From contig NZ_VORW01000001.1 in assembly GCF_007997215.1 (NCBI RefSeq), positions 372,001 to 436,000 of the forward strand: DNA of 64,000 bases, written 5' to 3'. Shown piece by piece: positions 24,656 through 26,308 of the stretch. The first letter of the stretch is position 1. The number at the start of each line of letters is the position of its first letter. This DNA is from Algoriphagus aquimarinus. Lineage in GTDB: Bacteria; Bacteroidota; Bacteroidia; Cytophagales; Cyclobacteriaceae. A program made the translations under genes and the position numbers. The notes beneath the pieces were generated by a model. That model worked only from the letters and a program-made list of their open reading frames with translations. It was not told the DNA's origin and searched no databases.

Positions 24656-25336
24656 TTAAGCTTTTGCTTCGTCTTCGCCAGCTTCAGGAGCTTTTTCTTC
24701 AGCAACAGGAGCCTTAGCTTCTGGAGCCTCTTCAGCAACAGGTGCCTTCTCTTCAGCAGCAGGAGCTTCTTCAACTACAGGTGCTTCTTCAGCAACGGGA
24801 GCTTCTTCAGCAACAACTTCCTCTACTACAGGAGCAGGGTTGTTAGCAGCTTCAGCAGCAGCTAGAAGAGCTTTTTGCTCATCTTCTCTTGCTTGAATAC
24901 CGTCAAGTCTAGCTTGGTTCTTAGCAGTTTCAGCATCAAATGCTTTCTTACGGATATCCGCTTTAGCTGCAGAAATACCTTCAGCCTTACCAGCAATCTT
25001 CGTGTCTTTTTCGTTCAACCAAGCTTCGAATTTCGCATCTGCTTGTTCTTGCGTGATTGCACCTTTCAATACACCAATCTGAAGGTGTTTTTTCAGCATC
25101 ACACCTCTGTAAGAAAGCATAGCTTTCACAGTGTCTGTTGGCTGAGCTCCGTTCAACAACCATTTAAGAGCGCGCTCATTGTTGATGTTGATAGAAGCAG
25201 GATTTGTGTTTGGATTGTAAGATCCGATCTTTTCGATGAAGCGTCCATCACGTGGAGCTCTTGCATCAGCTACAACCACGTCGTAGATAGCCATTTTTCT
25301 TCTACCTCTTCGTGCTAATCTGATTTTTACTGACAT
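24656..25336 (-). CDS. rpsP: 30S ribosomal protein S16 with long Ala/Glu/Pro-rich tail
   Basis: 226 residues against about 80-90 for the S16 core. The core is clear: [38 protein letters not shown] and [21 protein letters not shown] helical charged segment follows, then a tail from about residue 165 made of variations on [12 protein letters not shown] with repeated KAPVAEE units. Extended S16 proteins occur in Bacteroidota; the role of the tail is not known. First gene of the operon, with a promoter box at 25393-25400. Confidence 0.95.
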
Positions 25337-25613: not shown

Positions 25614-25768
25614 GGTTCCGTAGTTCAATGCCCGCCCGGCTGAAGCTATTCGGATGAGCGGATCAGGTTAACACGGTCGGACAGGCCCGCCCGGCTGAAG
25701 CCATTCGGACGGGGATAGAACAAGCGTTTCCTAAACGCTAGATCTAAGTTCGATTCTTAGCGGGGCTA
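25614..25768 (+). tRNA. tRNA-Arg(CCT)-like gene interrupted in the D-loop (copy 1)
   Basis: Removing 25631-25713 leaves a 72-nt cloverleaf. Acceptor GGTTCCG (25614-25620) pairs with CGGGGCT (25761-25767), three pairs being G-U. D-stem is GTTC/GAAC (25623-25626, 25718-25721). Anticodon stem AGCGT/ACGCT encloses loop TTCCTAA with anticodon CCT at 25730-25732, for Arg codon AGG. T-arm is CTAAG-TTCGATT-CTTAG with the canonical T-loop. The 83-bp insert falls exactly between the two conserved G of the D-loop (G18/G19). CCA is not encoded. Whether a functional tRNA is made is unknown. Confidence 0.7.
25631..25713. repeat. 83-bp palindromic insert in tRNA-like copy 1
   Basis: GC-rich against AT-rich surroundings. 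It holds two related units: 25631-25685, beginning CCCGCCCGGCTGAAG and ending CGGTCGGACAGG, and 25686-25713, beginning with the same 15 bases and ending ATTCGGACGGG. Ends CCCGCCCG and CGGACGGG can pair (one C/A mismatch, a G-U pair on the minus strand). The same insert recurs at 26050-26132 with five differences. Confidence 0.85.
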
Positions 25769-25799
25769 CTATAATTTTTTCAACTTAAATTTTCATTAT

Positions 25800-26042
25800 A
25801 TGTTCTACGCATATGTGCTAAAAAGTAAGATGCACGACTATTTTTATAAGGGTCATTGTCAAGACTTAGATAAAAGATTGGCTGAACATAATGCAGGAAA
25901 GACCCAATCAAATCGACCATATCTCCCATTTGAGATTGTGTATTTTGAAGAATTTGAAAGTGAATCTGGGGCAATACAGAGAGAGAAATATTTTAAAACC
26001 TCGAGAGGGAGAAAGTTTTTAAAAAAGATGTTGACCCCGTAG
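25800..26042 (+). CDS. Single-domain GIY-YIG nuclease (UPF0213/YhbQ-like)
   Basis: 80 residues, one complete small GIY-YIG domain. The two signature strands appear as FYAYVLKS and DYFYKGHCQ, followed by the catalytic Arg region DLDKRLAEHNAGKT and the Glu in GAIQREKYFKTSRGRKFLK. The family cuts nucleic acid; single-domain members have poorly known roles. It starts 31 bp after tRNA-like copy 1, and its last ten bases lie inside tRNA-like copy 2: the stop TAG is nucleotides 8-10 of that tRNA. This tight fit suggests a mobile or homing unit that uses tRNA-Arg as its site; that is inference. Confidence 0.85.
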   Translation: MFYAYVLKSKMHDYFYKGHCQDLDKRLAEHNAGKTQSNRPYLPFEIVYFEEFESESGAIQREKYFKTSRGRKFLKKMLTP

Positions 26043-26049
26043 TTCAATG

Positions 26050-26132
26050 CCCGCCCGGCTGACGCTATTCGGATGAGCTGATCAGGTTAATACGGTCGGA
26101 CAGGCCCGCCCGGCTGACGCCAGTCGGACGGG
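26050..26132. repeat. 83-bp palindromic insert in tRNA-like copy 2
   Basis: Same length and same position between D-loop G18 and G19 as 25631-25713, with five substitutions. In copy 1 both internal units read CTGAAG; here both read CTGACG. Confidence 0.85.
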
Positions 26133-26170
26133 GATAGAACAAGCGTTTCCTAAACGCTAGATCTAAGTTC

Positions 26171-26197
26171 TCCGCCCGGATGACCCGGTCGGACGGG
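26171..26197. repeat. 27-bp palindromic insert in the T-loop of copy 2
   Basis: Begins TCCGCCCGGATGACC and ends CGGTCGGACGGG, the same arms as the D-loop units with a different centre. Copy 1 lacks it, so it arrived after the duplication or was lost from copy 1. Confidence 0.85.
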
Positions 26198-26308
26198 GAT
26201 TCTTAGCAGGGATACTTCGTAGGATAATTCTAAAAAAAAATTCGTTTTGTAGGTGACTAATGATTCGATAAAAAGTCTATCTGATAGGCTCGATAGTCAT
26301 TCAATTTC

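Follow-up and report, generated by a model that had tools for sequence, protein, structure and literature searches.

In the genome of Algoriphagus aquimarinus, the body of a tRNA-Arg(CCT) is broken in its D-loop by 83 bp, which raises the question of whether such a gene can still be used and, if not, of what it is part. The window, i.e., the whole stretch of 64,000 nucleotides that we analysed, corresponds to positions 372001-436000 of contig C11, in a draft assembly of 5.16 Mb and 56 contigs. A sequence-only reading had proposed a novel split tRNA gene, with a GC-rich insert exactly between G18 and G19 and a cloverleaf that forms once the insert is taken out. The interruption is real. On the forward strand, the interrupted body (copy 1) occupies 25614-25769: nucleotides 1-17, up to G18, lie at 25614..25630; the 83-nt insert, indeed GC-rich and made of two palindrome-like units (around 25631-25684 and 25685-25713), at 25631..25713; and the remainder from G19, with the anticodon CCT, at 25714..25769. 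When the insert is omitted, ARAGORN calls a tRNA-Arg(cct), in agreement with the proposed cloverleaf. When it is present, ARAGORN finds no tRNA in the window and Rfam none that reaches its gathering score; there is only a sub-threshold Rfam tRNA match (24.7 bits) at 25699-25768, beginning inside the insert, so that the tRNA models do not recognise copy 1 as it stands. The same boundary is obtained by comparison with insert-free copies in relatives, in support of the exact site given by the earlier reading, with an edge uncertain by about 1 nt, since the deletion of 82, 83 or 84 nt at nearby points also yields a tRNA call. Against the intact tRNA-Arg(CCT) of three relatives (G006, G009, G070), the 54 nt located 3' of the insert are identical (54/54) and the 17 nt located 5' differ at 2 positions.

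This body is not a lone one, and here the earlier reading fell short: a second copy and a nuclease gene had been missed. In the 50 genomes compared, the gene located upstream of tRNA-Arg(CCT) is the divergent rpsP (S16), here at 24656..25336 on the minus strand. On the plus strand, 3' of copy 1, an ORF of 80 aa (P0001; 25800..26042) codes for a GIY-YIG nuclease (Pfam PF01541, E 5.6e-13). Copy 2 (26033-26215, plus strand) begins 419 nt downstream of copy 1, as a 134-nt repeat with 96% identity, and the TAG stop of the ORF is formed by its T8, A9 and G10. The register of this repeat puts nucleotides 1-17 of copy 2 at 26033..26049, and the repeat comparison places a D-loop insert of 83 nt, a homologue of the insert in copy 1, at 26050..26132 and the tRNA body from G19 to C56 at 26133..26170. 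By sequence inspection, a second insert of 27 nt stands in the T-loop, between GTTC and GATTC (C56|G57; 26171..26197), followed by the 3' end, with a mutated acceptor strand (26198..26215; repeat D3, 89%). The break is not a matter of chance, because it comes with this 134-nt repeat at 96% downstream and because the identical break point is found in 30/34 related loci.

Could copy 1 still work as a tRNA, either spliced or tolerating an extra helix? What speaks for it is that this assembly holds, by the Rfam RF00005 model, ARAGORN and DNA searches, only the two interrupted copies, so that the other intact tRNA-Arg(CCT) for which the sequence-only reading had allowed was not found. Indeed, the 36 tRNAs given by the Rfam model (150 of 394 candidates scored) include Arg(tct), Arg(tcg) and Arg(acg) and no Arg(cct). 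Moreover, copy 1 keeps its 7/7 acceptor pairs, two of which are now U-G, and the predicted fold of the RNA preserves the acceptor, D, anticodon and T stems around the insert; the 156-nt RNA folds no better than shuffles (z -0.73). The relatives point the other way. A DNA match was found in 64/72 same-genus genomes (own included), including each of the 50 with a completeness of 90% or more and a contamination of 5% or less, and the loci were compared in 50 genomes picked from these 64, own included. An intact tRNA-Arg(CCT) is present in 49/49 relatives, with rpsP divergent upstream as in A. aquimarinus. All seven acceptor pairs are kept in 11/25 rows of interrupted copies and in 25/25 of the adjacent intact ones, a rough count in which two rows are repeat fetches counted double and in which the 3' strand of upstream copies may be that of the intact copy; at loci with a downstream interrupted copy, 5/13 keep 7/7. 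The interrupted copies thus decay and do not seem to be under purifying selection, which goes against the two ideas that the RNA is processed in an unknown way and that the tRNA tolerates a large extra helix. With no intron family matched in Rfam, we consider a working split tRNA to be very improbable and rejected it as the main reading, given the decay and the intact copies that adjoin interrupted ones in relatives. A group I intron, an archaeal-type tRNA intron or another known RNA was rejected as well, on the D-loop position and the absence of any Rfam match at gathering score.

How, then, does A. aquimarinus do without an intact gene? AGG is used but rare in this genome (8 of 2659 codons in ten ORFs), and a gene for tRNA-Arg(UCU) is present. 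By wobble, tRNA-Arg(UCU) could read AGG, and this reading presumably falls to it if the loss of tRNA-Arg(CCT) is real. The two halves of copy 1 are what one would expect if the intact gene had recently recombined with an interrupted copy upstream of it, and a collapse of the assembly would look alike. Hence, for this genome only, the intact gene may exist within a tandem array collapsed in the draft, a possibility to which we give rather less than even odds and which is compatible with the module reading developed below. The assembly is, after all, a 56-contig draft; G006 and G020 do show the order interrupted copy - intact tRNA - nuclease - interrupted copy; and copy 1 resembles the 5' half of an upstream interrupted copy joined to the 3' half of an intact gene. 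On the other hand, the exact stretch common to such copies is short (around 20 nt in G006), and the two copies of A. aquimarinus differ from each other at several sites.

The answer to what the locus is part of comes from other genomes. Orthologues of P0001 with 70-79% identity lie 22-31 bp 3' of an intact tRNA-Arg(CCT) in G006, G014, G020, G053 and G058, with a second, interrupted tRNA copy 3' of the orthologue in each of them and, in G006 and G020, a further interrupted copy upstream of the intact tRNA. The order is tRNA - short spacer - GIY-YIG ORF - second tRNA copy, all on one strand, and the ORF often ends inside the second copy; at many loci the two tRNA copies are identical over long stretches. 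At the rpsP locus, an Arg-type module is present in 7/50 genomes (in G042 with a broken, frameshifted nuclease), plus one relic in G038. We also scanned public genomes of 84,980 species with six exact peptide patterns, which detect close relatives only, and obtained 37 loci (repeat fetches counted double). A same-strand tRNA lies within 400 bp of the nuclease in 36/37 of them, while our own estimate of the expectation, based on a density of 36 tRNAs per 5.16 Mb, is around 1%. The 27 loci that reach a best-segment identity of 57% or more all sit at tRNA-Arg (CCT or CCG), and the remoter loci (in Magasanikbacteria, Komeilibacteria, Parcubacteria, Omnitrophota and others) sit at Lys, Met, Thr, Pro, Leu, Glu or Val tRNA. 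Within the genus, 25 of 30 examined loci, a subset of a longer match list with repeat fetches counted double, have a same-strand tRNA within 600 bp, Leu(caa) in 11 cases; the other 5 have none called at this distance, including the A. aquimarinus locus, whose copies escape the tRNA call. By sequence comparison, many Bacteroidota and some candidate phyla carry the module at tRNA genes. Its usual state is one intact tRNA copy and another holding inserts that are GC-rich and palindrome-like; in the Arg family these stand almost always at G18|G19. The present locus is a member of this recurrent tRNA-linked GIY-YIG module, to which cutting and mobility are putatively ascribed.

The nuclease itself appears to be maintained. 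P0001 passes the GIY-YIG family cut-off (PF01541, 49.4 bits against 22.6), and residues Y5, Y16, K17, H19, H30, N31 and E62 are invariant among 26 Arg-type nuclease proteins. It consists of the catalytic domain alone, lacking a distinct part for DNA binding, and among solved structures it matches only two UPF0213 proteins (E 3e-4 and 1e-3). For the 15 pairs formed by six Algoriphagus orthologues, dN ranges from 0.07 to 0.22; dS has reached saturation in 12/15, and the remaining 3 give a dN/dS of 0.11-0.21. As judged from this low dN/dS, the protein is under purifying selection. Of the 34 distinct Arg-type loci, in which the repeat fetches L085=L132, L087=L124 and L110=L156 are counted once, six have a broken nuclease (L090, L110, L146, L148, L149, L155). 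Because the nuclease tree (68 rows) needs 9 tRNA-label changes among 60 labelled rows, against a shuffle mean of 25.3 and 0/200 shuffles as low, the nuclease clades appear to follow the tRNA families. There are exceptions: G015, for instance, has an Arg-linked nuclease that falls inside the Leu clade. This tree has few columns and many open forks, and it includes near-copies and repeat fetches counted double.

Tandem arrays with 2-4 nuclease copies exist at L012, L106, L125, L129 and L135. Arg-type modules edged by partial tRNA sequence are also seen away from an intact tRNA-Arg(CCT), at L090 (G010:C17) and L168 (G090:C3:103 kb). Tandem arrays and such off-site modules in G010 and G090 fit with amplification and movement of the putative element. 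The genome of A. aquimarinus has 12 GIY-YIG matches, 6 of them at tRNA copies. At C3:13800-16200 (L014, L036), an array located 3' of tRNA-Met contains several 3' tRNA-Met fragments and two GIY-YIG genes, and in most of the fragments TCCGCCGCGGCGGA replaces a portion of the anticodon arm and variable loop. At C11:681600-683600 (L012, L041), a tRNA-Leu(TAA) is followed by two tandem GIY-YIG units with 3' tRNA-Leu fragments, broken in the T-arm by CCTGCCTGTAGCAGACAGG, at the same position as in G008, G027 and G037. Two further GIY-YIG genes, on C53 and C33 (L009, L010), have no tRNA and stand amid repeats of type GTCAGGCTGAGCGAAGTCGAAG. In candidate phyla (L151, L153, L157, L160), tRNA copies adjacent to a GIY-YIG gene carry inserts starting with CCCGCCCG in the D-arm region, at slightly varying points.

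What are the inserts? One possibility is that they are ordinary REP-like mobile palindromes which insert into hairpin-forming DNA and are observed in these tRNA copies merely because a redundant copy tolerates them, with the nuclease unrelated to them; we regard it as unlikely, though it has real points in its favor. In A. aquimarinus, 6 of the 10 palindrome matches are in another repeat away from tRNAs, the remaining 4 being at this locus. In 22 other genomes there are 0-14 matches each, with 10 genomes at zero. Of the 30 loci read (out of 38 matches), 19 have no tRNA called, although 14 of these 19 come from two genomes. The T-loop inserts, found at GTTC|GATTC in 8/34 Arg-type loci, vary in sequence; nested palindromes are visible in L138 and L160; L164, L165 and L166, of the same family, show an interrupted tRNA-Arg that directly adjoins an intact tRNA-Arg(CCT), and no nuclease was detected in the stretch examined; and two Y1-transposase matches exist in the genome of A. 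aquimarinus. Against this origin stands the fixed point of insertion. In a scan of second copies over all break points, Arg copies are broken preferentially at G18|G19 and C56|G57 and Leu(taa) copies in the T-arm. The D-loop insert is at G18|G19 in 30 of the 34 distinct Arg-type loci (28/34 by a pattern search confined to this point, L087 and L088 being added from the unbiased scan); L129, L131, L134 and L147 do not have it. Moreover, L139, L141 and L145 share an identical 29-nt insert while the four-fold sites of their nucleases differ at 27/43, and in these three genomes the tRNA-borne insert is the sole copy within 3 mismatches. This identity in the face of such divergence, together with the single copy, suggests that the palindrome belongs to the module and is retained with it, rather than being random debris. 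The RAYT-mobilised form of REP was set aside for its low copy number and for want of a linked transposase, REP-like insertion staying as a rival.

The sequences of the inserts are partly in line with the palindromic units of the earlier reading: most start with a CCYGCCYG-like motif and end with its near-complement. Folding, however, was clearly better than that of shuffles in only 3 of the 21 short D-loop inserts tested (repeat fetches counted double). The D-loop inserts resemble one another between families: those of 26-34 nt have a mean identity of 81% over 210 locus pairs, against 67% over 10 pairs for the T-loop inserts. An order-wide search recovered the exact tRNA-insert joint in 6/291 genomes, whose loci include the nuclease-free L164, L165 and L166. 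In another idea, the palindrome acts in the RNA, either by blocking the folding of copy 2 and an RNase P cut that would remove the stop of the ORF, or by ending or stabilising the nuclease mRNA. Many loci do have the ORF stop at tRNA position 8-10 with the insert right after, and the insert sequence is conserved; but in L140 and L142 the interrupted copy is upstream of the ORF, which ends in the intact tRNA, and the inserts fold unexceptionally, so we find this role improbable. As to the palindromes seen elsewhere, six copies of a different, AT-rich repeat of A. aquimarinus hold an insert-like palindrome (L116, L117, L118, L119, L120, L123), and apparently the same AT-rich repeat also occurs without it (L119). 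A Segetibacter genome (L239, L245, L251, L253, L255, L257, L259) has 14 matches of the related palindrome; of the 7 that were read, 6 are embedded in another repeat, with CATCGTTG on one side and TGTCAC on the other.

We favor, with a little more than even confidence, the reading that the locus carries a chromosomal, tRNA-specific GIY-YIG module of the homing type, similar in its presumed action to SegB, and that the interrupted copy would be a displaced or recombined target. Such a module probably spreads by attacking tRNA genes. The nuclease would cut tRNA-gene DNA, and repair against the module-bearing allele would insert or amplify the module in the manner of phage SegB, through homing and segmental amplification. 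With the donor tRNA copy turned into the working tRNA, the host tRNA body would be pushed into the redundant copy, where the palindrome would mark the former target and may shield it. A difficulty is the intact tRNA beside the nuclease, which would have to escape if the enzyme does cut intact genes of this kind. In A. aquimarinus, recombination of an upstream interrupted copy with the intact copy would have deleted the last intact gene, leaving AGG to tRNA-Arg(UCU). Among the options of the sequence-only reading, which had named a decoy or target sequence, the target comes closest to this proposal. The long identical copies also fit with plain duplication or gene conversion, and the interrupted copies without a nuclease (L164, L165, L166) as well as the palindromes away from tRNAs count against a homing-type module. 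So do the 5 genus loci in which no tRNA is called within 600 bp and, for P0001, the single catalytic domain, the missing PHROG match and the identity of only about 40% to phage and plasmid matches.

Displacement can be looked for by comparing sister genomes, as placed by a species tree. Between G053 and its sister G002 (and likewise G019), the interrupted copy differs at 1/54 nt and the working copy at 14/54; against the further relative G007, the working copy of G053 has 6 differences and the interrupted copy 13. In G014, compared with both sisters, the working copy has 12 differences and the interrupted copy 5, and the interrupted copy is closer to other clades (0 differences) than to the sisters (5). 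G058 is uninformative in this respect, and G042, with its frameshifted nuclease, does not fit (5 and 8). Host tRNA displacement thus appears clear in G053 only, and even in this case G007 carries the other tRNA type. The flanks were compared in 14 cases: in G058/G031, G053/G019, G014/G010 and G020/G070, the sequence found downstream of the tRNA at the empty site is located, at the occupied site, 3' of the interrupted copy, and the remaining 10/14 comparisons gave no informative downstream match. For A. aquimarinus itself, the best match of the downstream flank to empty sites is a short one in G029 starting from the tRNA end, no stronger than chance matches elsewhere. A takeover by the incoming tRNA with displacement of the host body would fit some pairs, in which flanks and tRNA differences agree, and not others. 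The single informative base located 5' of the insert in G014 and G053 looks host-like and not donor-like, and a strict model, with entry exactly at G18|G19 and the interrupted copy receiving its 5' half from the element, is unproved.

A stronger version may be considered, i.e., a cleave-and-rescue element, in which the nuclease would destroy the host tRNA gene at G18|G19 while a working replacement tRNA is carried along, so that the module would be hard to lose; the palindrome would be a built-in lock at the cut site of the displaced copy, and different clades would handle different tRNA families in Bacteroidota and candidate-phyla bacteria. We hold it to be doubtful.

The homing-type module that we propose has its nearest model in phages. 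SegB of T-even phages is a free-standing GIY-YIG homing endonuclease located between tRNA genes (PMC2988022). It cuts inside tRNA genes, its activity is required for the tandem amplification of tRNA and segB by recombination, and it is reported to have no isotype preference (PMC13096335). The likeness is clear: here too the nuclease gene adjoins tRNA genes (36/37 public loci within 400 bp, 25/30 genus loci within 600 bp), and tRNA and nuclease are amplified in tandem, putatively through the nuclease. We further link the SegB motif, RAWTSGAAC (GTTCSAWTY on the other strand), to the T-loop GTTCGATTC, which it fits and which carries the inserts of 8/34 Arg-type loci. On the contrary, the module here is chromosomal, its nuclease is a single domain of 80 aa, each clade is tied to one tRNA family, unlike SegB as described in PMC13096335, and the flanking tRNA copy, a presumed target of cutting, is broken by a conserved insert. 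P0001 has no PHROG family match at E<=0.01, and its phage matches at E<=1e-3 are four records, all Listeria phages, at 39.7% over 78% of the protein; identity with its few phage and plasmid matches is about 40%. Hence, being chromosomal, single-domain and tied to tRNA families, with an interrupted flanking copy, no PHROG match and only partial phage matches at 39.7%, the module, which would work like SegB, is not filed as a SegB.

Other known systems are less close. With the homing endonucleases borne by bacterial group I introns, the target is split by the insert, and an allele that carries it is no longer cut by the nuclease it encodes (PMC3984707). Here too an insert splits the presumed target; the inserts of 83 and 27 nt, in the D- and T-loops, differ by having no Rfam ribozyme match, and an intact copy adjoins the interrupted one in relatives. 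With REP/RAYT systems (PMC3733652, PMC2817692), the locus shares short GC-rich palindromes, some also elsewhere in the genome. However, most genomes checked have few copies, the point in the tRNA copy is fixed, and the partner is a GIY-YIG and not a Y1 transposase, the two Y1 matches of A. aquimarinus lying on other contigs.

Integrative elements use tRNA genes as attachment sites, with tandem intact and partial tRNA copies around the element. Such tandem copies are present here too, but the module has no integrase and is a unit of about 0.35 kb with the nuclease only.

In the open-access literature we found SegB and nothing on chromosomal modules combining tRNA, GIY-YIG and palindrome. The results point to a widespread class of selfish modules on tRNA genes of bacterial chromosomes, undescribed as far as this literature shows, which would be the chromosomal counterpart to phage SegB and would account for the duplication, hybrid state or interruption of tRNA genes in many genomes. 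Several questions become testable in this way, i.e., how so small a nuclease recognizes its site, how the working tRNA of the host escapes, and whether the module has left its footprints in the tRNA sequence swaps between sister species. In the genus (L169-L217), the tRNA-Arg(CCT) body alternates between two sequence types among sisters, also where no module is present, and this two-type switching is possibly the footprint of past module passages.
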